From: Antedon bifida
Taxonomy: Eukaryota; Echinodermata; Crinoidea; Comatulida; Antedonidae
DNA length: 64,000 nucleotides
NCBI GenBank assembly: GCA_963402885.1
Contig: OY727096.1
Span: 13,001,820 to 13,065,819, forward strand
Direction: 5' to 3'
Position 1 is the first letter of the stretch. Every line of letters begins with the position of its first letter. Of the stretch, positions 8,679-48,622 are shown piece after piece. The position numbers and the translations under genes were made by a program. The notes beneath the pieces were generated by a model. That model worked only from the letters and a program-made list of their open reading frames with translations, made no database searches and was not told where the DNA came from.

Positions 8679-8719
8679 CTGTAAGGAAGAAATATTAATT
8701 ATTGTTTAGATATTAAAAG

Positions 8720-8892
8720 ACACCCGATTCTCGTACTGTTTATGTCTAACAACAAGAAACTGCTGTGCTGTTCCATGTCAAGCGACCATAACAGGCCCAT
8801 CCATATCACGCATGTGTCACTGTTGCATGTCCCAGTACTGTACTACTGTAAAACTTCATTCATCTAACGTGAAATTGTCCGCCGGCAACCAG
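8720..8892 (+). repeat. Left terminal inverted repeat of the 10.4 kb element
   Basis: About 173 bp that match the reverse complement of 18926-19099 with scattered mismatches. The match begins ACACCCGATTCTCGTAC and ends near GCCGGCAACCAGA. Confidence 0.92.
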
Positions 8893-9483
8893 ACTGAATG
8901 CCAATTGATATTATTAATTGTTACCATTATCATTTTTGTAAATATATTGTAATATCAGTTACATGGACATTTCATTTACAATTTAATTAAATGCATTATT
9001 ATATTTTTGTACTTGCCTGACATATTATTTATTATCTATTAATTTTTTATTGACAGATTAAAAGTGATATTTTATTTTTAAAATCGCGTATCAAAAGGTC
9101 ATCTTTTGACATAAATTAAAAATAATACTTACGTATAAACTATTTAAATTAAGTATAAAAAATATCAAGTGATGCATTATCCTGCCTATAATATTATATA
9201 AGCTTAGTTATATTAAAACTTAATTATATAGTAGATACTGTATATTATATCGATGTAAAACTGTGTTAACAAGTTGTCGCGCCTGCTGGCCAACCAGCTA
9301 CCACATATTACGTACGTGCCGTGTGCACCTAGACCAATTGCTGAATTGAATCGGTCTGGTCAATTCGTCCCTCATTCGTATGAATGTTGTTAGTTAGGAT
9401 CTATCTGGTTGATCAATTCCCACTTGGTTTTCTTTGTCCCTTAAAATTCTATTAGATGTACATTAAATATTGAATAAACTGAC

Positions 9484-9665
9484 CATCTAGTAGTAGGTTA
9501 TGATAGGCCTCTAGAATCCCCTCTAGGTAGTCTACTAGCCTAGCCTAGGCTAGTACTACTATACTACTACTCTAGGCTAGGCCTTGTTGTTTAGGTAGGC
9601 CAGGCCTAGCCTACTACTAGACCCTCTAGCCTACCACCACATAGGCCCTATGCCATAGCCTCAAG
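9484..9665. repeat. AGGCCTAG-rich cluster
   Basis: Dense CTAG, TAGGCC and AGGCCT words (for example CTAGCCTAGCCTAGGCTAG at 9537-9555) form a degenerate, self-complementary simple-repeat patch. Similar patches lie at 18330-18450, 22975-23660 and 27283-27590. Confidence 0.75.
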
Positions 9666-9689
9666 AAGGTTAGTAGGAAGGATGCTGGT

Positions 9690-9800
9690 CAACCCGTAAC
9701 CATGCCAACTCGTACCCAAATTGGTCAATTTGTACTCAATTCGGCTAACCCGTACCCATGCAAACCCGTACTACCTAATTATTTGGCTTACTCGTAACGG
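9690..9800. repeat. Left subterminal CYCGTAC motif cluster
   Basis: AACCCGTAAC, AACTCGTACC, TTTGTACTC, AACCCGTACC, AACCCGTACT and TACTCGTAAC occur within 110 bp. The core CYCGTAC also appears inside the terminal repeat (TTCTCGTAC at 8729-8737). A similar cluster lies at 18140-18205 near the other end, which suggests binding sites for the mobilising protein. Confidence 0.6.
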
Positions 9801-11583
9801 ATCCTATTAAACCTATGCCTAGTGGGATAGCCGGTTGTCAAACTATTAATCGGGTTCACAGATGATGAGGGTCATTTCAAGACGATCAGGACAAACTAAT
9901 GTACTTTTAGGACGTTTGGGCCGCAAATTTGTTTTTTTTAATGGGAAAAGACAATCGGTGATCGGTTCATTCATAATAACAACATTTTATAAAACAGATG
10001 AATTTGTACTACTGTATTAAACAAATTTGCACTTTTTTTTCCCCTCAGTTTTGAAAAATAGGTCAAATGATGTTCTACGTAACGCAGTACTCAACTAAAT
10101 TGAAGATTGCAAATGTAAAATTAGGTAAAAAATGAATATTATTATTATAACGATAAACTTAAGTTTTATATCTCTTTATTATCCATGGCATGTTAAAAAG
10201 TAGGTATAAGAACTCAATATAAAACAGTTGATCATGGAATATTGGTTATTTAAAATATTGAAAAAGATTTTCAAACCAGAATATAAAACAACCAAGCCCA
10301 GCTAAACATTAGAACTATCAGACCCAACGGTAAGACTATTGTGCCCAACGCCTATGACTGACCCAAAACTGAAGATGATGGACCGGCAGGCCCACAGTTC
10401 ATGTGGTGCAGATTTTAATAATGTACATTTTTTTCGATGTTTGGACTGTGGTCCAAAAGTATATTTCAGCCAGTCAAAAAAAAAAAAATTCTTCATGTTC
10501 TTGAAATTTGTAAAGTAAGTAAAAATCATTCACAAGTTATGACAGTTTTACTGTTTTTCCCCACTGTCCAGGTTTACACTTGCCAAACTTTCGTGTTGGC
10601 TGATGTCTGATGTCAACTATCTTGTTTAATTATAAGCCAGCAAATTTGATTCACATAATCTGACCGGATATTTTTGATTTAATATTTAAATGTATGAAAC
10701 ATTTGTTAGACCTACCAACTTACTTGCTGCTAAGGCTTTCTGCTAAACCTTTTGAGGTTACAGTTATGTTTAACACGCAAAAAATACACAGATTACGTGT
10801 AATGAAAATCTGAAAAAAGGTAATCTGAAAAAAAGGCTAGTAGAAGAATCATAAATTTAGCCGATACCGTGTTGATGTGTTCTCAGGCTATAGTTTGACC
10901 TCTTGTTAAACAGTAATTATTGACAGTTAATATATGGTAGGGTTGATGTGTAGTTTTTAAAACAAATCGCGGGAAGGCTTTATTGAATTTGCGTCTTATA
11001 AAATACTGTATTGTTATGAATATTATACAAGCATAGGCCTAGTGAGTATAAAATTTCGCTAAAATGCTTTGAAAACTAGGCAGGCTATGGCTGCTAAGCT
11101 AGCCCCCCAATAAGCTAGCCCTAGCCAAATAATAATTTTAATACTAAGCAAAACATGTTGGTTAAAACTTAGCATTATGGTTTTGCTACAATTATTAAGT
11201 GTATGTTGAAAAACTTATGGACGAAAAACGCTCCATTATGAAAATCAAAATGGCGAAATGCTTGAAATCATGAAATTGCAAAAATTTAGTGCCATGAAAA
11301 TAAAAGATTTTACAGTATATCATTGTAACTGTACACTGAGTTTTATTTTATATTAGTACAGTGCCAGTACAACTTTTTGTACATGCCATGTAACTAACAA
11401 AATGATTAGATGGTTTGTCAACAAGCTATAAATTGCTGGGTTTTTAATACTAGTTGCATTGTCAGTACAACTTGTTGAAGATAAAATACTAGCTCTAAAA
11501 TACTAGTCTACTAGCTGTCTATTTTAGACTTCATAGTTTACACATGTCTTAATTAGGCATTATCATTTTGTTTCTGTCCACAG
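9801..11583. other. Element interior without recognisable genes
   Basis: AT-rich sequence with no supported coding block. A 75-codon minus-strand frame at 10302-10529 includes a long A/T tract and has no recognisable motif. At 11340-11560 there are words (AGTTGCATTG, CAGTACAACTTG, CTACTAGCTGTCTATTTTA) that recur around the exon-like units downstream. Confidence 0.4.
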
Positions 11584-12568
11584 TTTGTTCCTATTGAACT
11601 TGCAGCATTTCCAGAGAAATATCATGAGGATGTTGATATTAAAAGTAAGTTGTGATTTTACTAAACAGCCATGTACAGCCCAATTTGCCTCTATTCACTG
11701 TTTGTGCTTTGTAGTTTTATATTAGTTGCATTGCCAGTACAACTTGATGTTGGCCTACATAGCATATCAACTAACATAATATCATTAGATGATTTGTCTA
11801 CTAGCTGTCTATTTTAACTTGATAATTTAACCATCGACCTATAAATTAATCTAATTTATAGGTCCATGATTTAACTATGAAATATGTCCTAATCAGTCAT
11901 TGCGCTTCTATCCACAGGTTGTCATGCATGCTATTGGACTTGCAAAATTTTCCCATAGAAATGTCATGAGGATGTTGATATTGTGCACATTAAAAGTAAG
12001 TTATGAGTCTACAGCACAGTCTAGTTTAAAGCCAAATTTGCACTTATTCACTTTGTGGTATTGTGCACAGTCAGGTAGACAGCCCAATTTGCCTCTATTC
12101 AATGTTTGTGCTGTGTAGTTGTATTGGTATTGATGCCAGTGTTTTCTATTCGTTGCATTGCCAGTGCAACTTGCTGTACATATTAACTAACATAATGATT
12201 ACATGGTTTGTCTACTAGCTGTCGATTTTAAGTTTCTTAAATTCAAGAAGAAGTATCTTACTGATTCTGTATTACTGCTCGTGCAAATTTCAAAAAACTT
12301 TGTAGGAGCAAGTACTACTCTTACTTACAAGCACTTGCTAATGAAATGAAAAATAACAACAACAAATTTTGGTCTTGGATGAAGAAGTCTTATAAATCTA
12401 ATTACTCTTAACCGTCAGCCTTAAATCTTGGAGGTACTTCTGTTTTTAAGCTGAGATGCTTAACAAAAGGCTGATATGTTTAACAATTATTTTCAATCAA
12501 TCTTTAAAGCTACAGTAGTGGTCCATATGAAATATTAGAGGATGAGGATATTTTTGTGCAGATTAAAA
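11584..12568 (+). repeat. Three decayed tandem exon-plus-intron units inside the element
   Basis: Exon-like blocks at 11584-11644 and 11918-11995 each follow CCACAG and end in AAAA|GTAAGT. The first encodes FVPIELAAFPEKYHEDVDIK. The second is a diverged copy (GLAKF..., GATGTTGATATT, ATTAAAAGTAAGT). A third partial copy near 12515-12568 lacks its acceptor. Flanking intron words (CCAATTTGCCTCTATTCA, TTGCATTGCCAGT, CTACTAGCTGTC) repeat too, so whole exon-intron units were duplicated. Function is unknown, and frames differ between units, so it is probably non-functional now. Confidence 0.6.
12235..12510 (+). pseudogene. Non-LTR retrotransposon ORF2 fragment (pre-RT region)
   Basis: The plus strand encodes KLCRSKYYSYLQALANEM and then KFWSWMKKSYKS before a stop; another frame gives ADMFNNYFQSIF. 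The order (basic Tyr-rich helix, FWS-W, then a FNNYF-SIF segment) is typical of the linker between endonuclease and reverse transcriptase in CR1/L2/Jockey-type LINEs. It is short, frameshifted and inserted into the third exon-like unit. Confidence 0.7.
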
Positions 12569-12821
12569 GTAAGTCTACAATACAGCCTAGTACAAAGCCA
12601 GATTTTCCCCTATCCACTGTTTGTGTTAATGTGTAGTTACACTTGTATTCATTTCTGTGTTTTTATTTAGTTGCAATGGCAACATTGTACATGGCATATT
12701 ACACAATTTAATAGTTGGTTTGTTTAACATTAACATTTTTACTCATCCTTATATGTTATGTTGTATGTTATTAATGAGTTGTTTCGGTGATCATGTAATT
12801 ACAGTTGTATTTATTGTTACA

Positions 12822-13160
12822 GGATAAAATACAGGATCGTGTGAATACATAAACAGACATATGAAGAAATAGGGTTTGAGGATGAAATGACACTGTTAGG
12901 ACCATCACCCGTCCAAGACAGAATTTAGCACCTAAAAATATTCCTTAATTATGAAAAAGCATTATCAAATAAACATTTAAAAATAAATATCAAATAATTT
13001 TAGTTGTATGTGATATTTTAGTGTGACAAAGAAATTACTGTTAATAAAAGATGTTTTAGATATTTATAGTACAAATTAGTATTTTGTTTTATTTAACAGT
13101 ACAATAAATTACATGTCTTGTTGTTACTATTGGTTTATATGGTATTGCAATAAAATGTAT
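12822..13160 (+). other. Possible terminal exon and 3' end inside the element
   Basis: TTGTTACAG at about 12814-12822 precedes GATAAAATACAGGATCG, encoding DKIQDRVNT and a stop. AATAAA signals follow at about 12967 and 13148. Together with the exon-like units upstream this could be the 3' end of a spliced transcript. It is only a reading of splice and polyadenylation-like signals. Confidence 0.3.
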
Positions 13161-13939
13161 ACATACAACACTCCTAATTTCCTAGTTTCTTCTTGAGAGT
13201 ATATTTTGCAACAGAGCATTATTAAAGGCCTACTTTTAGTAATGTTCACTTTGTTCATAATACACATGTACCAATTGATGGAAGTTGCACATATTATGCG
13301 AAATAATAATTGTTATAATAATCATTATTAGTCATGTTACTGTTAAATATTCCACTAAAAGGCTGAAATGAAGAAATTTAGTTCATGAAAAATGTTGTGA
13401 CGTCATCATAATGGCCACTCGAATATTCATTCATTCATATTCACATTTATTTCAACAAATGGGTTCCACCCACTTTTTTTTTCTTAAGTGCCCTTTTCAC
13501 ACAGAGACCATCAGCGAAATTGCTAGTAAATGCCTAACTCATGAGAATTATGGCCAATTCTCCTAGCCAGCAGACTTTTTTTCATCTAATAGGTAGACTT
13601 AAATATATTTTTTCTTCAGTTGCTTGCATTTGCCCCTTTTTAAAGAAAAAAAACTGGCTACGGGTGCACTTGCCATGTAGGGTGTTACTGGTTTTGATAA
13701 CATCCTCTTCCCATGTACCCGTATTTATGTGTAATTAATAAAATGATATTAAGTAGTTCATTTAGATGTGTAGTAGCTACACCTGAAAGAGTCAATTTCA
13801 ATCAACTAAGTTTAATACATTTTAAAATAAGGCATTAGACCTAATAATAGTAACATTATTTTAAAGAAAAATACTCTGTCTCCGTAAAAAAAAAGTTTGT
13901 GTCACTTCAAGTTGTAAGATTTGCCTTCACCTATTACTA

Positions 13940-15185
13940 ATGTAAAAGAATAATACTGTGTCATTCTTTTTGTTGTACATTATTAATAGGAGCATTTTCA
14001 CTAAATGAGTTCAAGTTGCATATGTGTTCATAGGCATCATATTTTGAAACTACAAATGGTCCAAACAATCTAAAATCTTAGTAAATTACCCAATTTTTCT
14101 ACCAAAGATGAACAAATACATATAAAATGCTTGTACCAGATTTGAACAAAATTGCAAATGATTAAGTATTTTTCCGCGATAGTTTTTGAATGCTGTTTTA
14201 CAGTGTTTTATTATTAGTCCAAATAATAAATTTCAATTACCAATACAAATCTAAATTTCCAATATAATTGTATTACAATTTTGGAATTAAATGCTGTTTT
14301 ATGTGTGGAACAAACTTACACTATTAAATATTAAGTGTGTGTAATAATTAGTCATTAATTAGCTATTATTTGACATTTATTTTTTCGTTATTTAAAATCT
14401 ACGCGAAAAAATCGGAGAGGACGCTGTTTTGCTGGTAAATAGATTAGGTTAGTGTGTGTGTTATTCTTCCGCTCGAGTATTCTTTAACTCACAGACTTCA
14501 TCGCACAGGTACGGAGCTCCCAATTATTTTTGTATTCTTATACTACAGGAAAGGTTATTCCATTTTGCTAAAGGAACCTTTAATTAATACAATATGTTTA
14601 TTTATTTTCAATTCATTCAATCAAGGAAGGAAACTAACGTCTAAAAAAATAAAGTATGAAACATAATGAATTAAAATAATAAGTACTTCCAATATGAGAA
14701 AATGTATTATCAATGTGTAAAATATCTAGCAATGCATGCCTTAATAGTAAATTGACGAGTCTCACTAAATATTGTAGGCTAGCTAGAGTGGTGGTTCAGT
14801 GTATGGAACCGGGAAGAGATTCGCTCTAGCCGCGTATGCTTATTAGTCACTCCGCGAGAGAGGTCGGCCTACGGGTAGGCCTTGGTCTTCTTTAATGGGG
14901 GCCTAGCTCGTGTCTACCAGAGTGCCTCGGCGGGCTCTACCTTCTACCTATACCCAGTAGAAGGCAAGGCCGATGCTAGACAAGACAATTTTTAAATAGG
15001 GAAGTTACTAGTAGTTCCATTTATTTCTAGTTTAATAAATCAAATAATGTACACTTATACTACCTAAACAAAAACAAATTATGAAATGTGATGAAATGAA
15101 ATAATAGTTACTGTTACAGGAAAATATGTTATCGACGATGGAGTAATAAAATATCAACAATAAATTGACGAGTCTCTGGCCAGCA
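13940..15185 (+). repeat. Dispersed repeat family, about 1.25 kb, inside the element
   Basis: This stretch is similar to the reverse complement of 23665-24925 (and 52825-54085 in copy C). Shared landmarks include ATAGGCATCATATTTTGAAA, GTAAATTACCCAATTTTT, TTCCGCTCGAGTATTCTTTAA, CCATTTTGCTAAAGGAACCT and GACGAGTCTC. Inside, a section ending TAAATTGACGAGTCTC occurs twice about 410 bp apart (near 14751 and 15162). No coding sequence or family name is recognised. Confidence 0.75.
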
Positions 15186-15838
15186 ACTAACTAACTAACT
15201 CTTATACTTACAGCAAAGTTGTCTCAAAGAAGCTTGAGTTGAAATAATTTCTTTGAATACTAAAAACAGGACCTAATGATGAAGGCTGCCTAGCCTACTA
15301 CATACTACTAGCACTAGTATGCGCTATACAAATTTAAAACCATCCATTATATTATATTCTATACCTGTACGACCACTGTAAAAGCCATGTTACAGTTTAT
15401 GAAATGTTTAATATTAATAAACAAAAATTTACTGTCCGTCTCAATTTCTACATTGCAGTCAACGGAAGATGGTAGCAGCCAATATTATTAAGCATCTTTA
15501 TTAGTGTATCAAATCAAATTTCTCAATACTGTACTATACTAGAAGGTCTCTTGAAAAACTTGGAATGGTTTAGCACCACTCGCAGGAGAGCGGCATGATT
15601 TAGAGGTACAGTACCACCAAAGCAAAGCAATTTTTATCAGTTCACATCATTTGTGTGTGGTAAGTAGCTTCTCAGAGATTATACCTTAATTCTCATCCTA
15701 AAAAGTACTTATTACACTTAACAACAAATTCTGTGAGAAATATATATATATTTTGTTTGCTGCATGGTAACATTAAAAGCTAATTTTATTGTATCATTAC
15801 TAAAATATCTAATGCAGTGACGTATTTATATTTTTCAG

Positions 15839-15898
15839 CTACAGATATGGACAATTTATGTAAAAGTGTGGGTGTACCCATCAATGAGAATAAACCAG
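15839..15898 (+). other. Exon-like block TDMDNLCKSVGVPINENKPG
   Basis: Sixty bases between TATTTTTCAG and GTAATG encode TDMDNLCKSVGVPINENKPG without a stop. Both boundaries are phase 1, so the block could be skipped or added without changing frame. Nothing else nearby confirms a gene. The protein is not recognised. Confidence 0.3.
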
Positions 15899-15899
15899 G

Positions 15900-17930
15900 T
15901 AATGTGTTTGTATATGTAGAGTAACATATATGTAGAATAACATATACATAACTGTACAATAGCATCATCCAAATCAATCTACTATAAAACCAATGCATCT
16001 TTCGGATAGGTAGAATCAGTTATTGGTGTGCCACCACCCTTTACCAAATCAGTCAATAATGAAATATTTGGCCCTTTTGTAAATTGTGAAGTTGATCAAC
16101 AATAAAATAATCTGGTCATTGTTATTGATATGAGCATTAATTTTTTTATTGATGTCTGGGCTCATGTACATTAATAATTTGACTTCATCAGGCTGGGTGA
16201 GTTGGTATGATTGCTGCACATTAATACTCGCAAAAGCCTGTGTAATTAACTCATATAGTCATAGTGTATGTAATATTTTTAAATCCTTATTGTATATAAC
16301 TGTATGTAAATGGTATTTTAAATGAATAACTATCTAGAACAATTAAACTTGGCTTGTTGTACATCCTATTACTGTATTCTTCTCGTCTAGCGCGTTTACC
16401 AGTGGCATATTCTGTATACTGGAAATTCTTCCTTTATATGGTAGCCGAACAAGTGTACCATCATAAAATTACCTGTTATGGCTGACTGACTGCAGTTTGG
16501 TGTTAGTGTAAATGTTGTTGATAATTAATTAAAGCAAACAAGTCAAATACATTATTAGTGCTTTAATATAGTTTAATTTCACGGATCGCAACATGTATTA
16601 AATTTTATTTCAGTTGGTTACTAATTAACATATTTAATAAAAAACAAAAGATACTATTGTAAAGTAAATGATCAAATCAAAATTAATAAAATAATATTTA
16701 TTATGTATAGTCAATCAATTAAAATCTTTTGAAATTATATTATAGAGGTAAAACATTTTGCATAAACATTGTGTAAATGTACATTTATAGTTGCATTATT
16801 ATTATACATTAAAATATAGGTTCGATATCATTTGGGTAATGGAATGTACACACAATTGAGATACTATGGGGAACTACATATTTTTATTGAGTACAGTCTC
16901 CCCTAACTTTATGAACGTAAAATAATTCATAGTTAATATTTTTACTTGAAAAAGCATTTTTAATTTTTAAGGGTGCTATTTTGTTACAATTGTAACTTCT
17001 ATGCTTTGGCAGTGTCACTCTAGATTTAAAAAAGATTTGCACACATGGACAATACATAAAGTTAAAGTTGTACAAGATATTTGTTCAATCATATACGAAC
17101 CAAGTACCATATTATATTTGATATGAAACAACAAACAACTTTCTATTTTGTATTTGCATTATTAATATGTGACATTAATGGTGACTTTTTCTAACCCCAG
17201 TTAAAACCTCATTTTTGAAAATAAACAAACCAAACTTGGCATAGAACGACCCTACTGTCTAATATTTTTGTGCACAATGTACAGTACATCTGAATAATGG
17301 TGGACATCATTTCAACAAATTTGTTCTATCCTCTTTTATTGTATTTGAATCACTTCGATTTCCACAATGAATCATGTATTTCTTCAAATAACTGTAAAAA
17401 ATATTATTAAATCACATTATTAGTTGATAATAGGGTTAGTGTAACTACTGTATGTGCAAATCATTATCTGATGACATTGCCCAGATCCAAGTAATTTAAA
17501 TAAATATGCACTGAAATTTCTCACCATAGAAATTGCCCTTCTTATATTTTCATACAGCATTAATAGTATCAAATTCTAGGAGGTACGAGGGTGGGAAAAA
17601 TTCATGACGATATCTTTTATTTCTGAAAGCACAGCTACAACCATCTGGAAATAGAAATGTTTTAAATTTAAATACAGAACTGTAAGCCTACTGTATTTGG
17701 TTTGAAACATACGTACAAATATAAATTTAATCACACTAACCAATTAGATGTTTTTTAAAAAAAAATTGTTATCTAGAAGAATACGAAATCCTAAAGTCTA
17801 TCATAGGATTTATAGATCGACCACAGAAGAGCGAGAAAAATGCCGTGAAGTGGGTAGAGGGTCCCATTTCAAGAAATAATAAATGTTTTACATAGCATTC
17901 AACTTTACTTGGATACGCATCAGCTGTCAT
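15900..17930. other. AT-rich element interior, nothing recognised
   Basis: About 2 kb with many stops in every frame and no motif or repeat that could be assigned. A 63-codon minus-strand frame at 16884-17075 has no recognisable feature. Confidence 0.45.
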
Positions 17931-17939
17931 GGATATGAG

Positions 17940-18720
17940 TTGGTATGGGTACGGGACGGGGTTGACCGGACATATTTAGTAGTTTAGTGCTGTAGTTTGT
18001 AGCAAAAATGTAGTTAAACATCATTAGTTTAATTTTATCTCAAGAAGACCGGGAAATGGATGATACTACTGGGCCTAGCCATGCCATAGGTGGATCGCCA
18101 TTGGTTAGTCTAGCTAAGGGGGTGGGGGAGGGGATACTGGCTCACCCGTACCATAACAAACTCGTACCATAACAAACTCGTACCCATGCCACTCTTACCC
18201 ATGCCAAATTGTATATATTTTGGTCAGTTCATACCCGAATCGAACATTATACTACTAGGCATTTAGCATTTAATTAAACTTGGGTATGAATCATATATAA
18301 AATGTGTTAGGGTATAATGAGGCCTGGCCTCATAGAGCAATCAGCTAGAGCATCCTGAGGCGGATGCATGGGTAAATAATCACGGCTAGCCTAGCCTACT
18401 AGATAGGTCTAGCTAGGCCTACTACAGGCCACCACTAGGCTAGGCCTAGCTTACATATATTTATATATAGTACTTATATCTATATTTATTTATACTTATC
18501 TTGGCACAAAACTGCACGGTCTCCTTAGGCAGGCTAGAAAGGGTTGACATACGATCGGTCGGGTCGGTTCAAGCATGGTTCAAGAGGGTCCTCCAAGTTA
18601 TAATTATTGATAGGGGGGCTTGGTATTTAGGAGGACTCGTCCAAGGCGATATCGGACCCATTTTAGAGACGATCAGGTCAACCCGTACCAAATTTGGCGA
18701 ACTTGTACAGACATTTCGCT
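17940..18720. repeat. Right subterminal CYCGTAC motifs and AGGCCTAG patch
   Basis: CACCCGTACC, AACTCGTACC and AACTCGTACCC occur at 18144-18184, with CAACCCGTACC near 18679 and AACTTGTAC near 18700. A reverse-oriented GGGTACGGGACGGGGTTGAC lies at 17946-17965. The area also holds TAGGCCTAGC-type sequence at 18380-18450. A 73-codon frame at 18501-18722 is not a recognised protein. The motifs mirror those at 9690-9800, but most have the same orientation at both ends. Confidence 0.6.
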
Positions 18721-18925
18721 AACTAATTCTTGGTGGAAAATCATCGACATTTTTACTGAAATATCCTGATAGTTTGCTTAAACAGAAATCTAAATCCTAG
18801 AATTGCATACACTGTTCGAAACATACACAAATCTAGGGCCTTGGCCTCCTAGTTTAACCCAGGTCTATAATAATGTTCACCAATCACGAGCGAGTTCCAT
18901 TGTTTGGTTGGGCCTACGACTCGAC

Positions 18926-19099
18926 TCTGGTTGCCGGCGGACAATTTCACATTAGATGAATGAAGTTTTACAGTAGTACAGTACTGGGACATGCAACAGT
19001 GACACATGCGTGATATGGACGGGCCTGTTATGGTCGCTTGACATGAAACAGCGCAGCAGTTTCTTGTTGTTAGACATGAACCGTACGAGAATCGGGTGT
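18926..19099 (-). repeat. Right terminal inverted repeat of the 10.4 kb element
   Basis: The inverted partner of 8720-8892. It ends CCGTACGAGAATCGGGTGT directly before the AAAAG duplication. The short frame at 18952-19143 lies within it and is not a gene. Confidence 0.92.
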
Positions 19100-19219
19100 A
19101 AAAGAATAGGCAATGAAATAAAATTCAACTCATTTCTAAACATATAAAACTGAAAAAAGAAGAAATCTGGATAGATTATGTGATACTTTAATATGGTTAA
19201 AGAAAGCTATTTACTTACT

Positions 19220-21315: not shown

Positions 21316-21794
21316 CTGTAACTCATCGCAATCAAAGAACAGGCTTGTACCAATTATAAACGTCCATTCTCACACATACTTATCAACAGCTTCATGACTA
21401 AGAGAAGATGGCTCAATGACAAATGGCATCACCCCGATGTTGTTGTCAGCAAGAACAAGATCAGTCATTTACAACGGAACTCGAAATTTGGAAAAAGACT
21501 CCATAATCCCAATTCTTCCAGATGAAGAAATTGGCAATCTGTGTGCAGTCTCTCTGACCATCCCTCGTCATGAACACCGTGCAAAGAAGTATGGCCTTCG
21601 TTGTTGCTCCATTGACTTTCAACGTCACAATCTCCCCACTGACATGGTACAGCACCATCTCAGAGCCTACCACAGTGTTGTCTTGTAGGATGACATCTCT
21701 GGAGCTCTCAATTTCAATACCTGCTGGCCACGATATATCCTCAGCATTGTAGCGGTCTTGATATGTACCAGGAAAGACAGAACAGCAGATTAAT
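21316..21794 (-). pseudogene. PKHD1L1-like exon (FPGTYQDRY ... DCTQIANFFIW), copy A
   Basis: The most complete piece of the gene, between TTTTAG and GTAGGT on the minus strand. It encodes LICCSVFPGTYQDRY, PAGIEIESSRDVILQDNTVV, GSEMVLYHVSGE, DGQRDCTQIANFFIWKNWDY, LVLADNNIGVMPFVIEP and IIGTSLFFDCDELQ. These follow fibrocystin-L closely through one parallel beta-helix block. Four lesions break it: a shift after VSGE (the correct frame continues CDVESQWSNNEGH), a second shift before the FMTRDG segment, a third near 21465, and an in-frame TGA after DKYV. All are shared with 50470-50948. Confidence 0.85.
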
Positions 21795-21847
21795 CTAAAA
21801 TGTAAGTTACTATATAAGGGAAAGAGAAGTATTTTGGCATTGCTTAC

Positions 21848-21993
21848 CTGCTCCAACTGTGTGGTGAATTACATTATCCTGAATTGTTAGTCCTGAAGTA
21901 CCAAACATCCCGATAGCAGGACTGAAGCCATTATGAAATGTATACAACCGCTGGACCTTCTACAGTAACTTCTCCAATATCCAAGAAAGCAAC
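21848..21993 (-). pseudogene. PKHD1L1-like exon (SVAFLDIG / TSGLTIQDNVIHHTVG), second paralogue
   Basis: The minus strand encodes VAFLDIGEVTVEG, then shifts, then GFSPAIGMFGTSGLTIQDN and VIHHTVGAG before GTAAGC. Unlike the four related exons at 3429, 5531, 43493 and 44897 it keeps the FGTSGLT residues, but it has lost bases near 21944 (TATACAACCGCTGG), which shifts its frame. The lesions in the two paralogue groups are therefore different. Confidence 0.78.
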
Positions 21994-23664: not shown

Positions 23665-24925
23665 TTTAGAGACTCGTCAACTTATTGTTTAAGAATGCAG
23701 ATATTTTTTGCCCCGTCGATATAAAATATTTTCCCGTAGAAGTAATTATTAGTTTATTACTAATTTTTCTGTTAAGGTAGTATAAGTATAGGATTTGGTA
23801 AATCATTATTTTAATACAAATAAATATAAGTAGAACCACCAGAACTATTTCCGCTATACAGCCCTATTTAAAAATGGCCTGGTCTAAATTAACATTCTAC
23901 CTACTAGGGGAACGTAGGTTGGCCGAGGCACTCTGCTTGACTTTCTAGGCCCCCCACACTACAAGTCCTAGGCCTACCCGTTAGGCCAATTTCTCTCGCG
24001 TTGTGGTAATAAGGATACGCAGCTAAAGTGAATTTCCTCCGCTACACACTGAACCACGAGCTAAGCCTACATATTTACCGATACTCGTCAATTTATTTTT
24101 TATGGCATCAATGCTACACATTTTGCCCATTGTTAATACATTTTCTCGTACTAAAAGTACTTATTAATTTAATTCATTATGTCTATACTTTATTTATTTA
24201 GATATTTAGTTCCCGTTTCTTGTTGAAATAAACTGCAAATAAATAAAGCTATTGTATTTCTAAAGGTTCCTTTAGCAAAATGGAATCATCTTTCCTATAG
24301 TATATAAGAATACAAAAATATTTAGGATCTCGCTATTTATCTGGGCGATGTAGTCTGTGGGGTTAAAGAATACTCGAGCGGAAGAATGCAACACATAATA
24401 ACCATATCTATTACCAGTAAAACAGCGTCCTCTCTTATTATTTCGCGTAGGTTTCAAATAACGGGGAAAAAAAGTTAAGTAATATCTAATTAATGACTAA
24501 TAATTACATTACATTTTAATATTTAATAGCATAAGTGTGTTCCACTCATAAAAGAGTATTTAATTCCAAAATTGTAATACAGTATATCGAAAAGTTAGAT
24601 TTTTATTAGTGATAGAAATTAATTAGTATTATTTGGATAAAATAAAACTGTAAAAACATCATTCAAAAACCATCGTGGAAAAATACTTAACCAACTTCAA
24701 TTTTGTTAAAATTTGGTACAATAATTCTATATGTATTTATTTATCTTTAGTAAAAAAATTGGGTAATTTACTAGAATTTTAGATGATTTGGAAATTTTTT
24801 ATCTTTCAAAATATGATGCCTATGGTTCTACTATACATTTACAACATTTTTTTTACTAAAAGTGCGCCTAAGTTATTTAAAAAAAAAACTTGATACTAGT
24901 ATTTTTCTTTTACATTATAACATTT
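23665..24925 (-). repeat. Dispersed repeat family, about 1.25 kb, inverse of 13940-15185
   Basis: Reverse-complement relative of the repeat inside the 10.4 kb element. It contains GAGACTCGTC at 23669 and the related ATACTCGTCAATTTA at 24081, AAAGGTTCCTTTAGCAAAATGG at 24263, AAAGAATACTCGAGCGGAAG at 24365, and TTGGGTAATTTACTAGAATTTTAG. No coding sequence is recognised. Confidence 0.75.
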
Positions 24926-34672: not shown

Positions 34673-35308
34673 CTGTGATTTGTGATCATTATCTGTTATT
34701 AAAAACAATCCACTTAATATGTTCCCTTATAGAAGTATTTTAACACAACTTGTTATTAAGTTGCAAAATACTGAAATTAAAGACTGCCTGAACCCAAAAC
34801 AAGTAAGTGCCAGACAAAAAGCCTAAGGAAAAGCCTAGAATATTATATTTATCCTTGTTTGACCAATGTTTGACCAATATTTATCCAATTGTTCTGGAGG
34901 TTGTCTTTAATTTGAGGTGATTTATACAGCCGATGAAATCAAATTTGAAAGAAGTCTGTAATTGGATTTTTATGGGAGTGACTTGTAGGTACTTTTGGCT
35001 AGTCTTCAACATAAGTTGCTCTTAGAGTGGATACGATAGTCTACAATTGAAGATGCTTTTAAAATTGGGGTAGGGGGAAGTATTAATAGAAGGTAGTGGG
35101 TTAAATAGAGGGAGACCTGCATTGAAAATTTGAAATGGACTGTTAGTCTTCAAAAAGAAGTTGCTCTTAGATTGGATACGTCACTAGTCTACAATTGATG
35201 GTGATTTTTGAATTATAATGCAGTATTAAATAGAAGATGGATGGTTAATTAGAGAGAGAACTGCATTGACAATTTGAAAATGACTTAATTAATTAAAAAA
35301 TCACCAAC

Positions 35309-35656
35309 CATGGAATCCAGATGTTCTGCAATATCCGTTGTAAAATCTTCAATTAGATTAAACTGAACATTAAATTTCTCCAAAACTTTTACTGTTGATC
35401 TGCGATTGATATGTGGAAAACACCCTCAATGACAGAAAACTCTGTTGAGTTGATACCTTCTAGCGTGGATGAGTTGGAATAAACAATGCTGAATTCAAAG
35501 AAGTAACCACTTCCCCACAGATTAATGGCAAGATCAGTGAAGTTGGCCCAGCCATGGATTATATCTACAGTGTTGTTGCTGATGAGCTCTGCATCAGATA
35601 CTCCTGGGCATTTTCCATGGATGTGAAGAATGTCCCAGATTTTGCACAATTTCAGC
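35309..35656 (-). pseudogene. PKHD1L1-like WANFTDLAI exon, copy B
   Basis: Same exon as 7723-8060, encoding GWANFTDLAINLWGSGYFF and EFSIVYSNSS, with the same frame change near the IADQ residues, after which TVKVLEKFNVQFNLIEDF continues in another frame. It begins after TTTTCAG. The donor side reads GTTGGTGA. Confidence 0.75.
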
Positions 35657-35730
35657 CTGAAAAAATCAAAAAATCATTGAATAATTCCTTTTTTTCGTAG
35701 AATATTTGTATCAAACCTATGGTGTATTAC

Positions 35731-35943
35731 CAAAGCTTGATAGCCTACAGTATATTGGAGTTTAGAAAGAATTGTGTTAAAACCTACACTGGTATCCAAT
35801 ATAGAGATGCAAGGCTGAACCTCAAATGGATGGTTCTCCATAGCATCAGCCGTAAACGTATACTCATTGTGCTTTGGAATTGATAGATGATTTCTACTCC
35901 TTGGTCACTAGATGCCTCTTCTTCAGCTTGCTTCTCAGAATAC
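35731..35943 (-). pseudogene. PKHD1L1-like EKQAEEEAS exon, copy B
   Basis: The fullest copy of this exon. YSEKQAEEEASSDQGVEIIY is followed, after a one-base frame change, by KHNEYTFTADAMENHPFEVQ and CISILDTSVGFNTILSKLQ. The donor is GTAATA. The shared frame change shows the lesion is older than the A/B/C split. Confidence 0.68.
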
Positions 35944-36123
35944 CTGTGAACCAATTAGTTATGTTGGTTTGTAATGATATAGGCATTATGGTTATGTTTG
36001 TTGCACGCCACACATGAGAATACAATTTAAGACTTTGGACAAGACGATACAAGCCAGTTCTATACTACAGTAACTCTACAGAAAACTCTACTTCAACTCA
36101 TTACTTCTTAAAATGTGACTTAC

Positions 36124-36320
36124 GTTTCATTGCCTGTACTTGGACCTCCTGTTGTATTTGTTGCTCTCACACCCCTTGTTGGGTCTTCAGCTGGGGGAGA
36201 AGAATCGGTCATTGCTAATAACCTCAACTTCAAGACTCTCGTACAAAGTACCGGTTTGTGCTGCATTAACAATTTCTGCTTGAAGGTTAACTAACTCATC
36301 ATGTTCAAGGGTTGAATTGC
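36124..36320 (-). pseudogene. PKHD1L1-like NLQAEIVNAAQTG exon, copy B
   Basis: 197 bp, the same length as in A and C, with LVNLQAEIVNAAQTGTLYES and the same frame change after EVIS, before the Pro-rich MTDSSPPAEDPTRG segment. Confidence 0.68.
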
Positions 36321-36706
36321 CTGTAAGGAAAAAATATTAATTATTGTTTAGATATTAAAAGAATAGGTAATTAAATAAAATTCAACTCATTTCTAAACAT
36401 ATGAAACTGAAAAAAGAAGAAATCTGGATAGATTATGTGATACTTTAATATGGTTAAAGAAAGCTATTTACTTATTATATATACCAAACTGGCAAGATTG
36501 TTAACAAGATCTTCTTCATAGAAGTCGTCAACATCAACAGGAGCCACACCAAAGTCAACCATTATAACCGGTGTAGTGATGATGTCAATTGGGTCACTAC
36601 CACGTATAAGTATCCAAAGAGTCTGCCAATCGCGATCACAATAGTTCTCGCCATAAATGCTGGAGTCAGGAGTTGGCATGAACTGATCGTTTGGATCTTC
36701 TGGAAC

Positions 36707-37484
36707 CCATATTTCTCTTTCTATTAATGGCAATGATGTCGAAAGAGTTGACAATTTTAAATATCTTGGACTTACATTTGATTCACTTTTATGTCATGGA
36801 AAGAGCATGTTGAACAAGTAGCTTCTAGAGTATCACAACGTATCGGTATTATTCGTAGATTAAGATATTATATTCCAAATTTTGCTTTAAGACTACTTGC
36901 TAATGCAATAGTATTACCTTGTTTTGATTACTGTAGTAATGTTTGGTCAAATTGTAACTTAGAACTTGTTAATCGTCTACAAGTACTTCAAAATAGAGTA
37001 GCTAGAATCATTCTTTATGCTGATATGTACACCCCTATAACAGAATTGATGTCCTCACTAAAATGGAAGAGTGTCCATGACAGATGGGAAAATGATTTAT
37101 TAATTATGCTATTTAAATGCCTACAGGGTTTAGCACCATCTTATTTAACAAATCTATTCAAATTTATGGACACTTTTCACACAAAAAATACAAGAAGTCA
37201 ATCAACAAAAACTCTAAATGTTCCAGCATGGAACAATATTTATGGAAAGAGAATGTTTAATTATAGAGCATCAACCTTATGGAATAATCTTCCTGTACAT
37301 ATCCGTAAAAATTATGAGACACTTAGTCAAGTTGAATTTAAACATCTTGTATAACTTCTATTGTACATAGTTTTAATATAGCTTTTACTTTTATTTTTCT
37401 TGTATTTTTTTTTCCAAATCTGGACCTCTTGGGAGACCAGTACTTCCAGAATAAAGAAAGATTTGTATTGTATTGTATTGTATA
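36707..37484 (+). mobile_element. 5'-truncated CR1/L2-like LINE
   Basis: A 778 bp insertion in the opposite strand to the host exon. GGAAC stands at both edges (36702-36706 and 37485-37489) and may be part of a longer imperfect target duplication. It contains the last part of the LINE reverse-transcriptase ORF, an AATAAAG signal and a 3' tail of ATTGT/TTGTA pentamers (37461-37484), the kind of microsatellite tail found in CR1/L2 groups rather than poly(A). Confidence 0.85.
36714..37354 (+). pseudogene. LINE reverse transcriptase, C-terminal part
   Basis: A first short frame reads ISLSINGNDVERVDNFKYLG and LTFDS. One frame change near 36790 leads to 187 codons with WKEHVEQVASRVSQRIGIIR, LPCFDYCSNVWSN, RLQVLQNRVARIIL and YRASTLWNNLPVHIR. 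These are the landmarks of the region after the reverse-transcriptase palm (YLGL, FDYCSxVW, LQNRxxR, LWNNLP) in CR1/L2/Jockey-type ORF2 proteins. The catalytic FADD part is upstream and lost. The ATG at 36791 is internal, not a true start. Confidence 0.88.
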
Positions 37485-38130
37485 GGAACATATCTCCATC
37501 CAGCTGCCCGTTATTTGACATGACATAGTGACCTTGATGGTACACATCTAAGCGTTGAGGATTGGCATACCAGATGCCGACAACTATTTTCTGATCTGGA
37601 GCTGTGTTCAGGAAATGAAGTCATAACGTTTGAGGATTCGTTGAACTCTCATATACATCTCATAAGTCTCTCCAATTGCAACGATAGACATAAATGTGCT
37701 GATGCGCTCTTGACATGTGTACCCATGACACCAGCCGTGATCTTGTGGTCCATTGATCAAATCAACATAACCGTTAGACCCAATGACGATTGGTGAAGAC
37801 GTCGTAATTCTTGGTCAGGATCAAGACTTTCAATAATCAACATAGCGTAATCATAGTCATAGCATTCAAAAGCCTGCCAAGATTCATGCCATATGCAGTC
37901 TTCTGTACCAATGATACCTTAATGAAAAGAGCAGATTATATAAAAGATCACAGCTACAACACAGTGATTCTCCTACTTCTCAAAAAAGGGATGCCACAAT
38001 AAAATTGCGTGCCCAGTCTCGGTGAATGGACTGGTCTTGTTTCAAGAGTGCAACTTTAATAGGAGGAAAGATTTAGGGAAGAATCACAGTTTACAAAAGC
38101 TAAAATTCAACATTAAAGCAGACAACCAAC

Positions 38131-38218
38131 CTTTATGTGGACATTTTTCATCATAAGGAATTTTAAGTCCACGTCTCGGATCTCTATCCCACTCGTATGG
38201 AGAATCAGGAATAACATA
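38131..38218 (-). pseudogene. PKHD1L1-like exon end (VIPDSPYEWDRDPRRG), copy B
   Basis: The minus strand encodes SYVIPDSPYEWDRDPRRGLK, then IPYDEKCPHKG before GTTGGT. It matches the second half of the exon at 19629-19841 and, unlike that copy, is not frame-shifted after DPRRGL. The first half (FNPSEC) is replaced at 38219 by inserted sequence. Confidence 0.75.
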
Positions 38219-38520
38219 ACTTTTAACTTTTAAATGTAAATAGGTTGGGTAATCATCAGGAATAGTCCTGAACAGGGAGATGAGCGCCCCTGCCCACCGA
38301 TGAGTTTCGGGATCCCTTTCACCCGGAGGGAGAGTACCCGTCAGGGTCCCTACCAAGGGTTACAGGTCCCAGGTTTTTAGTTGTTTTTAAAATTGTTCCA
38401 TGACCTTCTCATCAAAATTAACGTCTCTCATAAAATTAAGAAAAGTTGTGCTATGTCAACATAATGTCAATGACGGCGAAATGTCCCCAATATTGGGGAT
38501 AGCTATGAAAACAAGTAAAG
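38219..38520 (+). mobile_element. Probable non-LTR retrotransposon 3' end with AAGT tail
   Basis: Host identity stops exactly at 38219. The following 300 bp include GGGTGAAAGG-type GC-richer sequence on the minus strand and end CAAGTAAAGTAAGTAAGTAA, a tetranucleotide tail typical of some LINEs. It sits directly against the broken start of a Gypsy gag. Coding content is not recognised. Confidence 0.5.
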
Positions 38521-38532
38521 TAAGTAAGTAAC

Positions 38533-39175
38533 TTGTATTTCAAGGCAAAAGAAATTACTACAGAGGGGAAGAAACAAGCAACACTGTTAACAGTTATTGG
38601 CCCATCATCTTATAAGCTTTTACGAAATTTGGTTACACCAGAAAAACCCAAGGATAAAACATTCGATGAGCTGGTAACAGCTATGAATGGGCATCACAGT
38701 CCAGTGCCTAGTGAAATTGTACAGCGATACAAATTCAACTCACGCTTTCGACGTGATAATGAAACAGTGCCTGAATTTATGGCATCGCTTCGATCGATGG
38801 CAGAATTCTGTAACTTTGGAGCCTCGCTCAATACAATGTTACGAGATCGTCTAGTTTTTGGCGTCCGTAATCACGGAATTTGGTCTTTTGGCAGAAAAAG
38901 CACTGACACTGGAAAAAGCTGTTGAAATTGCAACTAGCATCGAAACTGCAACAAGAAATGTAAGAGATCTGGCGCAGCCAACCTCTGCAGCTGCAGTTGA
39001 AAATGTAAACAAAATTGCTTACAAAAAGAAGTCAAAATTTACATCAAATACAAATAAGAAGTCGAAACCATGTTTTCGCTGTGGAAAGAATAACCATTTG
39101 CCAGACAAATGTTATTTTAAGTAAACAACTTGCCATTATTGTAGCAAGGTAGGACACATTCAATCTGTTTGTCTT
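38533..39175 (+). pseudogene. Gypsy gag with two zinc knuckles (broken)
   Basis: Gag forms the particle and binds RNA. The first frame carries FNSRFRRDNETVPEFMASLR and MLRDRLVFGVRN, typical of Gypsy capsid regions. Near 38870 the frame changes to EKALTLEKAVEIATSIETA. Two CCHC zinc knuckles follow: CFRCGKNNHLPDKC at about 39070 and CHYCSKVGHIQSVC at about 39132, with a TAA between them (39122-39124). The start is missing; the methionine at 38533 is internal. Confidence 0.88.
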
Positions 39176-39263
39176 AGCAAAAAGAAGGGGAAGCCCCAAA
39201 CAGTTAAAAATGTTGTGGCAGATGAGCCAAGCGATGAACCAAGCAACATAGCTACAGATATGT

Positions 39264-39977
39264 ATGAAGAATTATTTGGAACAAAGACCACGTCTAGTTC
39301 TCCACCTCATCATCAAAGTTAAGATACTGTTAGATGGTTTGGATACTGAAATGGAAATTGACACAACAGCCTCGGTATCAATAATGTCGCAGACGAAATT
39401 TAGGCAATTATGGCCTGAAAGAAAACTTGAACCATCGTCAGTTAAGCTACGTACGTACACTGGACAAATAATGGATGTTTTGGGTAAAATTAATGCTGAA
39501 GTTACATACCAGAGTACTACTACAATATTACCGTTAACGATTGTGCGAACAAATGGACCTACCCTAATTGGTCGAGACTGGCTTCAGTTTATAAAGTTGG
39601 ACTGGCAACAAATCAAGGTAATAAACCAATTAGATTTAAGTTCACTGCTTGGTAAATACCAAGAAATATTTAAAGATGAACTAGGTACCCTTAAGGGTAC
39701 TGAAGCAAAAATGTATGTTGATAAAGAGACAATGCTAAAATTTTGCAAAGCCAGAAATGTTCCGTATGCTTTGCGACAGAAAGTAGATGACGAACTTGAT
39801 CGCTTACAACGAGAAGGCATTATTGAACTTATACAGTTTTCAGACTGGGCTGCACCAATAGTTCCGGTACTTAAGGCAGATAAATCTACCATTAGGATCT
39901 GTGGTGACTACAAAATTACTGTAAATAAAGCAGCCAAAGTTGATCAGTATCCTTTGCCCCGAAGAAAAATTTACTAA
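39264..39977 (+). pseudogene. Gypsy protease and start of reverse transcriptase
   Basis: A 237-codon frame. MEIDTTASVSIMS is the aspartic protease site, but the usual Asp-Thr-Gly reads Asp-Thr-Thr, a change expected to abolish activity. LIGRDWLQ, a common end-of-protease motif, follows. The reverse-transcriptase part has VPYALRQKVDDELDRLQREG, IIELIQFSDWAAPIVPVLK and ICGDYKITVNKAAKVDQYPL. The frame fails at 39960-39977, where a short piece seems to be missing before FTKLDMSQAYQQL. Confidence 0.88.
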
Positions 39978-40460
39978 ATTGGACATGTCACAAGCGTACC
40001 AACAATTACTCTTGGATAAAGATTCTCGAAAATATGTTGTAATCAACACTCAAAAGGGACTTTACAATATACACGGTTGCCGTTTGGAGTCTCTTCAGCA
40101 CCAGCGATTTTCCAGCGTGTCATGGAAGGACTATTACAAGGAATTAAAGGTGTTACAGTATACCTGGACGATATATTAATTACAGGAAAAAATGACTTTG
40201 AGCATTTCGAAACTCTTGAAACCGTCCTAAAGCGACTGGCAGATGCTGGACTTCGTCTAAAAAAGAGTAAGTGTGTTTTTATGGTTAAATCTGTTGGTTA
40301 TTTGGGACACCTGATCGACAAAGAGGGATTGCATCCCACAAACGCCAAAGTGAGAGCAATTAAAGATGCTCCAGCGTCTCAAAACTTGACAGAACCGAGA
40401 GCTTATTTGGGATTATTATCTTATTATGAAGTTTTTACCAAACTTATCCAACACACTTAA
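39970..40460 (+). pseudogene. Gypsy reverse transcriptase palm (two frames)
   Basis: FTKLDMSQAYQQLLLDKDSR supplies the first catalytic Asp. The frame changes near 40070 to LPFGVSSAPAIFQRVMEG and VTVYLDDILITG, in which YLDD is the catalytic box with the other two Asp residues. KKSKCVFMVKSVGYLGHLI and DAPASQNLTEPRAYLGLLSY complete the thumb. Another change near 40455 leads into RNase H. Confidence 0.9.
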
Positions 40461-40465
40461 TTGCT

Positions 40466-41176
40466 TTGTTATATGCCTTACTTCGTAAGGATAAAGCTTG
40501 GAACTGGACAAATTTAGAACAATCTACTTTTGATAAATCAAAGGAATTGCTACTTTCCTGCAGAGTACTTGCACATTATGATCCAAAAAAGGAAATAATA
40601 TTATCGTGTGATGCATCTCAATATGGAAGTGGGGCTGTGTTAGCACATCGACAAAGTGACGGTACAGAAAGACCAATCGCATTTGCATCTAGAACACTTG
40701 CAGAAGCGGAAAAAAAGTATTCGCAAATTGAGAAAGAAGGTTTGGCATGCGTTTTCGGAGTAACGCGATTTCAGTCTTACATTTATGGTAGACATTTCAC
40801 ATTGGTAACAGACCATAAGCCATTGCTGGGTCTTAATGAGGACAGACTTGTGCCTAGCCAAGCATCAGCTAGAATCCAACGTTGGGCACTGAAATTAGGT
40901 ACATACAAATATACATTAAGCTTCAAACTGACAAAGTCCCATGCCAATGCGGATGCCTTAAGCAGATTACCATTGCCAGGAAAACCAGAATCAATTCCAC
41001 AACCTGCCGAAACTGTTCTATTGATGGAGTCAATGAACCAATCTCCAGTTTCCACAGCAGATATTAAAGGTTGGACGGTTAAAGATCCAACACTTTTTCG
41101 AGTTCTTTACTACATTGAAAAGGGTTGGCCCAATACTAATCCAAAAATTGAAAACTTGCAACCATATTGGATCTGA
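40466..41176 (+). pseudogene. Gypsy RNase H and connection region
   Basis: A 236-codon frame. LSCDASQYGSGAVLAH has the first acidic residue, EKKYSQIEKEGLACVFGV the Glu, and TLVTDHKPLLGL the next Asp of the RNase H site, which degrades RNA in the RNA-DNA hybrid. SHANADALSRLPLP ends the domain. The frame stops at 41174-41176 and little remains before the integrase deletion. Confidence 0.9.
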
Positions 41177-41209: not shown

Positions 41210-41537
41210 TTGTGGGGAAATAGACAAAATCTGAAATGGTTACCCGGAACAATAATATTAAAATCCGGTCGCATCTCATTCAAGATAAAACTAGAAGATG
41301 GACGAGTTTGTCGTCGTCATGCCGACCATATCAGGAAGCGTTATAGGCCTGTTCAAACTCAGGATAAACAGCTTACAAACAAAGATGATCCTCCACAATT
41401 ACCTCCAATGCTCATTAATCCAAATCTTAACAGTGGAAACATCACAATCGACTGTCGAAGCACAGTCTATTACTGCTCAGCGAAGAGTATACCTTACTCG
41501 CGATAGAAAACCGCCGGAAAGATATGGACATTTTTAA
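41210..41537 (+). pseudogene. Gypsy integrase C-terminal remnant
   Basis: After the deletion junction at about 41220 the sequence encodes LKWLPGTIILKSGRISFKI and LEDGRVCRRHADHIRKRY. A frame change then leads to RKPPERYGHF and a stop at 41537. Apart from one Arg/Ser or Gly difference it equals 1190-1490. Confidence 0.88.
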
Positions 41538-41727
41538 TAACTGAAATATAGAAACTTTTATGGACATTATTACTGGACAATTTAAAATGTTGATCTTATA
41601 TTTTACTTTATACAGTGCATTATACCATATACATTTAAAGTGTTATTAAACCATAACTTAGTACAGTGCTGCTTTGATTCAATTATAAATAAATAGCTTA
41701 GAATTGTTTATAATAGAAGGGAGGGAA

Positions 41728-42035
41728 TGTAATGTATTGAACTTGATTAATATTACTTGCTACCAATTATTTATACTTCCTTCACCTGTTACCATATATA
41801 TTACGTTAACCCACTTCTATATAACCCTGGCTACTTAATGGTCACTAATGGCTAAAGTAGACCCCTCTGCTGAGACCACTAAACATTCCACCTTTACAGA
41901 TTAATTACCCATTACCGATATTGTTATTATATATAGTAGATGTAGAATAAAGAATAAACACTTCAGTGCTAGCTTTCAACTATAACAGAACTTGTCTCTC
42001 TCTCACTTATTTGTATTGTAAATCGGTACATTACA
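41728..42035 (+). repeat. Gypsy 3' LTR (308 bp), copy C
   Basis: TG...CA ends, same length as 1664-1971 and almost identical, preceded by the purine tract AGAAGGGAGGGAA. The right flank AAAAGTATTG is the same as in copy A, so the two elements occupy the same site and were duplicated with it. Confidence 0.9.
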
Positions 42036-42225
42036 AAAAGTATTGTAGGTAAGTGTACTAGGTTGATGAAAATAATGCAACTAGCAAGTAAGGATACACA
42101 ATGATTTACATTTACGTAACTTGGATAAATGCAAGTGGTCCGTAGATATATAGGATAAATACTATTAGTACTTACCCTAAATTATGTATATGTATGTAAA
42201 CCCTGTTCTTGTCTCTGACTGTTAC

Positions 42226-42343
42226 CTTCTTTGTACAGTACCTACAGCGGACATTGGGTGGATACCATCATCATTTGATGGATTGGTCATAGTAGCGTAA
42301 TGATCTTTCTTACACGCAGTATCAAAATGAGCGAATGTGACAT
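42226..42343 (-). pseudogene. PKHD1L1-like DVTFAHFD exon, copy C
   Basis: Copy of 2162-2279, same length and splice sites (ATCAATAG, GTAACA). It has one base difference near 42239 that changes the end of the exon. Confidence 0.6.
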
Positions 42344-42662
42344 CTATTGATAAGAAAGAGCAAAATACCTTTATTTGTAAATGAATAAGTATGTTGAAAT
42401 ATATTCATTTGGTAAGTTTCACCAAAAATGTATTCCGATATTAAAGACATATTTTATGATAAAACAGTACTAAGGGACAACCTCAACATTACAGTGGTGA
42501 TAACTTGGATACAATGGCAATTTTATGTTATCCAAATAAGCATTCAGCTTCATGTGTAAACAGTATGAGTATGCGTTTCCTGCAATAGAACTCAACTGGT
42601 TTGTCCAAGTAAGGACTAGGTTTGTCCAAGTAAGGACCAGATTATGTCATGCTTTTACATAC

Positions 42663-42837
42663 CTTGCAATCTTGTGCTTCCAGCAATAGCTGGGTAATTA
42701 TGTATACCATGAAATGGAAAAAATGGAGCACCATTATCACCAGACATGAAATTTGCCCTCACGTATCCAGCATTTCCATTGTCTGGACCACAAGGTGCAC
42801 ACTGTTTTGCACTTTGACCTGCATTCTCCGGTTGATT
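42663..42837 (-). pseudogene. PKHD1L1-like NQPENAG exon, copy C
   Basis: Copy of 2599-2773, open through its 175 bp (NQPENAGQSAKQCAPCGP, GIHNYPAIAGSTRLQ), with TTTCAG and GTATGT sites. Confidence 0.6.
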
Positions 42838-43306
42838 CTGAAATATTTACATGAAAATGTTAATGGGAAAATGTAATATTTTAATCAGAATTTATAAATT
42901 ACGTGACTGATTACACAATGGAATGGCATTATCAGTACACGTTAAGAAAAAGAAGGTAGAAGAGTAAGAAAGTCCTTTGACAAATTTCCTTATGAAAGTC
43001 AAGTATGCATATATAATATCTATACATTGATTTTATTTGACAGAATGCAAAATATAGTTCCCCAAACTGACAAAATAATAACATTTGAAAAACAGAAATA
43101 AAATCTTTTAAAATGAATAATAAAAATGTTCATATTTATTGAAAATGTTTATATCTTTTTTGGGTTTCCCACTTTTATTTCATCGTCATTAACATTGTTC
43201 CATTCATTATGATTTTTACATTTATACATTATCTAATCTAATTCATCATAATTGCTTAATTACAGTATTCGGTTTGTAACATGCTACAAATGTTTATATT
43301 CTTATA

Positions 43307-47077: not shown

Positions 47078-47090
47078 AACCTTGGAATCC

Positions 47091-47428: not shown

Positions 47429-47495
47429 CTGTAAAAATCATTGAATAATTCCTTTTTTTTCGTAGAATATTTGTATCAAACCTATGGTGTATTAC

Positions 47496-48050: not shown

Positions 48051-48205
48051 CTGTAAGGAAGAAATATTAATTATTGTTTAGATATTAAAAGAATAGGTAA
48101 TGAAATAAAATTCAACTCATTTCTAAACATATAAAACTGAAAAAAGAAGAAATCTGGATAGATTATGTGATACTTTAATATGGTTAAAGAAAGCTATTTA
48201 CTTAC

Positions 48206-48583: not shown

Positions 48584-48622
48584 CTTAATGAAAAGAGCAG
48601 ATTAGATAAAAGATTTTACTAC

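Follow-up and report, generated by a model that had tools for sequence, protein, structure and literature searches.

A recently mobile 10.4-kb family of long-TIR elements in the crinoid Antedon bifida, probably non-autonomous, with a putative spliced transcription unit

Non-autonomous DNA transposons are usually regarded as short, inert decoys. In contrast, the element described here, which we think is non-autonomous, is 10 kb long, lacks a recognisable protein, has been mobile very recently and appears to carry a spliced RNA unit. Pack-MULEs and Mutator-like elements (MULEs) are known for long terminal inverted repeats (TIRs) flanking unrelated, foreign interior sequence; the target duplications of MULEs are usually 8-11 bp long and those of hAT elements 8 bp. 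Galileo, a Drosophila element of the P superfamily, is described in excerpts of two papers as having 7-bp duplications with the consensus GTANTAC, long TIRs and mostly non-autonomous copies, copies with transposase segments also existing (PMC2775673, PMC4168063). According to an excerpt on the Dada superfamily, its members produce 6-7 bp duplications and insert into multicopy small RNA genes, and the families Dada-U6 and Dada-U1 have no TIRs (PMC3706591). Long TIRs are given as typical of most plant MULEs in the text available from PMC3310237, and primate retro-DNAs, in the available part of PMC11195612, are DNA-transposon sequences copied back with a poly(A) and longer duplications. Among the results listed, our literature search found no paper on an element such as the present one, which does not exclude that one exists.

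We analyzed a window of 64,000 nucleotides (C9:13001820-13065819) from a genome of 315.6 Mb in 27 contigs. Comparison of the window with itself revealed an inverted repeat (8720-8893 / 19099-18926; 174 bp, 96.6% identity, E 8e-78) that belongs to an element of 10,378 bp (Table 1). The left and right TIRs are identical at 167 of 173 positions, and the end sequence of the family is CACCCGATTC / CACCCGATTCTCGTACGGTTCATGTC. Two CATGTC boxes are present in the TIR, a number reached by 3.6% of shuffles. The same host DNA stands twice more in the window, as copies B and C, both of which read GATATTAAAAGAATAGG at the point where the element-bearing copy holds the insertion. The left flank of the latter is 92.6% identical to copy B and 99.6% to copy C, the right flank 93.4% and 99.1%, and the sequences are unambiguous at all three sites. 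The initial annotation, made from the window alone, had called the insertion certain from the two empty sites and its ends inverted repeats of about 173 bp; both statements are borne out, and a real TIR insertion is confirmed. Of the two target duplications that it had considered, the 7-bp TAAAAGA with CACCC termini is the right one, and the 5-bp AAAAG with ACACCC arises because the flanking bases by chance extend the inverted repeat by one. The window also contains a large recent segmental duplication in pieces (1176-27496 and 41223-56657, mostly 98-99%) with a third partial copy at 35015-36710 (93%), as well as an 88-bp satellite of about 40 copies at 60476-63998 that continues to the window end.

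Table 1. Features of the element and of its family (window positions unless a contig is given)
Feature	Position	Strand	Basis or remark
Whole TIR element	8721..19098	+	self-comparison, empty sites, end tabulation
Left TIR, 173 bp	8721..8893	+	
Right TIR, 173 bp	18926..19098	-	
Left 7-bp target-site duplication TAAAAGA	8714..8720	.	
Right 7-bp target-site duplication TAAAAGA	19099..19105	.	
Empty site, host copy B, single TAAAAGA	36356..36362	.	self-comparison and site sequences
Empty site, host copy C, single TAAAAGA	48086..48092	.	self-comparison and site sequences
Exon 1, 3' part	9376..9388	+	donor GTTAGT; 5' limit open
Exon 2	10049..10124	+	acceptor CAG, donor GTAAAA
Exon 3	11584..11644	+	acceptor CAG, donor GTAAGT
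Exon 4, similar to exon 3	11918..11995	+	acceptor CAG, donor GTAAGT
Exon 5	12516..12568	+	acceptor CAG, donor GTAAGT
Exon 6, terminal	12823..13164	+	acceptor CAG; poly(A) follows 13164 or 13165
AATAAA, likely polyadenylation signal of retrocopied transcript	13149..13154	+	
Deletion point of window copy	12237..12238	.	without ~196 bp present in 5/6 other copies
Independent dispersed repeat inside element	13938..15177	.	143 candidate places, 40 scored
Interior private, at length, to seven full copies	15200..18900	.	genome search, 13/13 candidates scored
Full copies	window (C9), C9:15418682 (C9b), C9:3681003 (C9c), C1:18216472, C10:13551249, C7:26259001, C15:7681672		
Shorter relative L021	C10:17581185		4.6 kb, related ends

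The initial annotation had made its reading depend on further copies in the genome, and near-identical ones were found: the family has seven two-ended copies on five contigs (C1, C7, C9, C10 and C15). Together with the shorter relative L021 they make eight two-ended elements, all with CACCCG...CGGGTG ends, except that the outermost right-end base is altered in the C15 copy. Tabulating the target duplications, as had been proposed, gave 7 bp in eight of eight, all different: TAAAAGA, TTTACCA, ACAGGAA, CAATTCT, CTGAAAA, TTAAACT, AAAATGT (C15) and TGTAGGG. This count leaves out four orphan ends, for which the DNA fetched around them showed no partner, as well as the eight ends of the loci called family 2 below and short relatives. 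The latter are older, and two of them have both ends found: that in L043 (~380 bp) has by eye a 7-bp duplication with one mismatch and that in L032 (~231 bp) has none. A 26-base end pattern, allowing up to 3 mismatches, matched 19 ends genome-wide (14 full-copy ends, the left end of L021 and the four orphan ends) and none as a reversed-pattern control. The left 201 bp as a query matched at least 40 places (40 of 43 candidates scored), and a sister end motif gave 12 ends against 0 for its control, one of them already among the left-201-bp matches. A 135-codon ORF sequence of both host duplicates (21461-21868 and 50615-51022) also occurs on C13 (L022 1155), about 9 kb from an orphan family end.

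Inverted-repeat ends and a target duplication of fixed length are thus both found, as in a non-autonomous TIR transposon. The duplications do not have the 8 bp of hAT elements. Their length lies within the 6-7 bp given for Dada in the excerpt cited above; on the other hand, the element has 173-bp TIRs, and a scan of the window site, the only one scanned, found no Rfam family there.

We searched the window copy for proteins in six frames, with stops as X, and obtained no Pfam family in any of the six at E values up to 1. As a control, the scan recognised decayed gypsy domains in the same window, and found nothing in three of three frames over a 190-codon ORF at 36782-37354, so that it can miss proteins. 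The longest ORF of the window copy has 83 codons, a length reached or exceeded in 94 of 100 Markov sequences, and the C9b copy holds one of 113 codons. Recognisable protein domains are absent from the element, and the initial annotation was right to see no transposase. It had also called for a related copy carrying one; the seven two-ended copies share one interior, and no such copy was found. L021 was considered as a carrier, and its match to DDE_Tnp_1, which lies in an ORF of 85 codons and with E 0.021 falls short of the family cut-off, was treated as chance; it also gave PF15128 at E 0.7. A virus-like element was rejected, since the six-frame scan gave no domain of any kind. Decayed Ty3/gypsy-type pieces lie elsewhere in the window at 38001-41176 (RVT_1, RNase H) and, by eye from ORFs, at 72-816.

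The dispersed repeat of the interior, at 13938-15177, recurs in the window at 23668-24917 and 52830-54078 and is not a gene: a five-sequence alignment shows indels throughout this AT-rich repeat. Beyond the full copies, the stretch 15200-18900 matches 155 bp in one solo end and four other places over 63-231 bp at 75-83%, and a captured host gene there was rejected, no other match at length being found among the 13 candidates, all scored. The matches of 8900-13937 (40 of 507 candidates scored) were family members, relatives, dispersed repeats, short or diverged pieces (one at C8:23602056, ~340 bp at 86%) and a retrocopy on C7 described below; a donor gene for this part is not fully excluded.

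Altogether, we favor a family of non-autonomous cut-and-paste TIR transposons of about 10.4 kb moved in trans, to which we give a probability of roughly 80%. A transposase encoded elsewhere would bind the 173-bp TIRs and cut at CACCCG/CGGGTG, and the whole unit would be inserted at staggered cuts, leaving the 7-bp duplications. The question raised is which enzyme moves 10 kb in trans. The initial annotation could name no superfamily; 7 bp is a known size, found for example in Galileo and Dada, and any assignment to a superfamily is tentative.

A P-superfamily, Galileo-like non-autonomous element moved by a P transposase of this genome is a possibility to which we give somewhat less than even odds. 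The family has 7-bp duplications, within the 7-8 bp of the P superfamily, and long TIRs, as the excerpts on Galileo describe. A member of the P superfamily would also be expected to have a THAP domain and a P-type transposase, either of its own or in a partner element sharing its ends. In the genome, PF21787 (TNP-like_RNaseH_N), which we take to mark P-type transposases, gave 58 matches, some being pieces of one gene. Fifteen of them have an identical score and lie in frames of 638-642 codons (e.g. C7:306529 and C15:7728559), which suggests that P elements may have been active here recently. However, none of the 58 lies within 19 kb of 52 listed places with related ends (51 distinct), a limited list drawn from 40 of the 43 candidates of the left-201-bp search and the 12 sister-motif ends; counted between start positions, the nearest is 19.1 kb away. 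The 3-mismatch end pattern matches only ends of the family, L021 and the four orphans. Unlike Galileo, the family has no duplication that fits GTANTAC (0/8) and no copy with transposase segments was seen. No related TIRs occur in the sequence retrieved from a pair of P-type loci (L054-L056), which stops short of recognisable ends.

A MULE-type non-autonomous element, with long TIRs and an arbitrary interior, would likewise agree with TIRs of this length, given as typical of most plant MULEs in what is available of PMC3310237, and PF10551 (MULE) has 33 matches in the genome. We nevertheless consider it unlikely. The duplication is 7 bp and not 8-11 bp, and none of the 33 MULE matches comes within 19 kb of a listed related end, the nearest being 73 kb away. 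The element resembles a Pack-MULE in its long TIRs around unrelated interior sequence, and differs from it in duplication length and in that no captured host gene was seen among the places scored.

We also considered as a partner the eight near-identical loci of family 2 (L034-L041) and rejected them: their TIR-like motif sits inside a longer repeat that has 180-bp tandem units, and the fetched DNA showed no partner end. These loci (L034-L041 / L046-L053), on six contigs, have the motif downstream of the 180-bp tandem repeats and share a 1-kb repeat also present in the window element.

The initial annotation had missed a transcription unit in the interior. At C7:22467229-22468045, found in the 8900-13937 search, five stretches of the element follow one another in their original order, without the DNA that separates them in the element. 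Counting the 13-base end of exon 1, six element segments are joined over five introns, all GT-AG, and four exon blocks abut at C7:22467229-22467498. We read 429 bp of this region (143+211+75), and the exon joins 2/3, 3/4 and 4/5 come from match coordinates. The copy begins directly after TGCAATTTCAAT and ends with ATACAT followed by an A run. The 12-bp TGCAATTTCAAT recurs three bases (TGG) past this run, a duplication that by eye can be lengthened to 16 bp, at the cost of one mismatch, when TGG is taken in. In the element, the AATAAA stands 10-11 bases upstream of the poly(A) point. The exon blocks match the window copy at 92-100% identity, and the last exon is split by a later insertion of ~175 bp (L057 29-206). 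Intron loss, poly(A) and target duplication, the marks of a processed retrocopy, are all found at this site. Such a copy implies that an RNA of a family member, or of a near relative, was spliced and polyadenylated; both processes are shown for this transcript.

Primate retro-DNAs are, from what the available part of PMC11195612 says, the nearest precedent for this retrocopy; the transcript copied here was spliced over five introns beforehand. By the tests applied, the interior of the element is non-coding; on its + strand it would hold a transcription unit of Pol II type with six exons known and poly(A) addition at ~13165, and one such RNA would once have been copied back into DNA by LINE-like machinery. 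By eye, the DNA upstream of the retrocopy (L059) reads like what we take to be a LINE endonuclease, and a LINE probably took part in the retrocopying. The case offers a test of whether elements without a transposase can harbour RNA genes and spread them.

Of the six other copies, five have the exact splice-site string at ten of ten sites, and C15, the most diverged, has it at seven of ten. One could assume that the sole gene of the element is a spliced, polyadenylated non-coding RNA that helps its spread, or that the family represents an undescribed superfamily with 7-bp duplications and an enzyme split by introns. In the former case, a benefit to spread from the RNA, or from the long interior, would have kept the splice sites intact in six of the seven copies. 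We hold this pair of explanations to be quite unlikely.

We judge it improbable, too, that the element is autonomous, the spliced unit or another intron-rich interior gene encoding a transposase so divergent or so finely split that Pfam misses it. A check for an own transposase gave no Pfam match in six frames and no long ORF, though an intron-rich gene of a new kind could have escaped it. The presence of a real spliced gene, its similar exons 3 and 4 with a common open frame, the interior kept at 95-100% block identity, as expected of a self-mover, and the lack of a better partner would all fit autonomy. So would an ORF of 55 codons, the longest on the sense strand once the exons are joined into 622 nt of spliced sequence, but 24% of 500 Markov sequences reach this length, the ORFs of the window copy are no longer than chance and the known transcript of ~0.6 kb is small for a transposase, though exon 1 is open-ended. 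Our preferred reading, a transposon moved in trans, would rather make the RNA non-coding, or the product of a decayed gene, and not that of a working one.

The copies moved recently and as whole units. Their pairwise divergence is 0.19-10.19 substitutions/kb (21 pairs among seven copies), and C9b and C1, on different contigs, show 2 differences in 10,518 aligned bases, yet have distinct duplications. Six of the seven full copies have an identical set of six differences between left and right TIR, and C15 has four of these six; being common to the copies, these differences show that a single founder was copied in whole units and that all copies descend from it. Segmental duplication or an assembly artefact has next to no chance, even in a window full of tandem duplications, and is refuted by the tabulated 7-bp duplications, each of the seven copies on five contigs having its own one and different flanks, with matches that end at or within ~10 bp of the element ends.

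All seven two-ended copies have their interior in common apart from deletions and nested insertions. A shorter stretch of the ~196 bp missing from the window copy is present in C15, and the ends of this deletion have the three bases CTT in common. C9c lacks three stretches, and C15 lacks ~0.8 kb and carries nested insertions, one of which is 3.46 kb long (L019 1907-5370) with a 316-codon ORF. Finally, the nested element of 842 bp in C9b (L010 1146-1988) is by eye foldback-like, with ends GGGTGTGTAGAAAG and a 10-bp duplication AATATTATTA.
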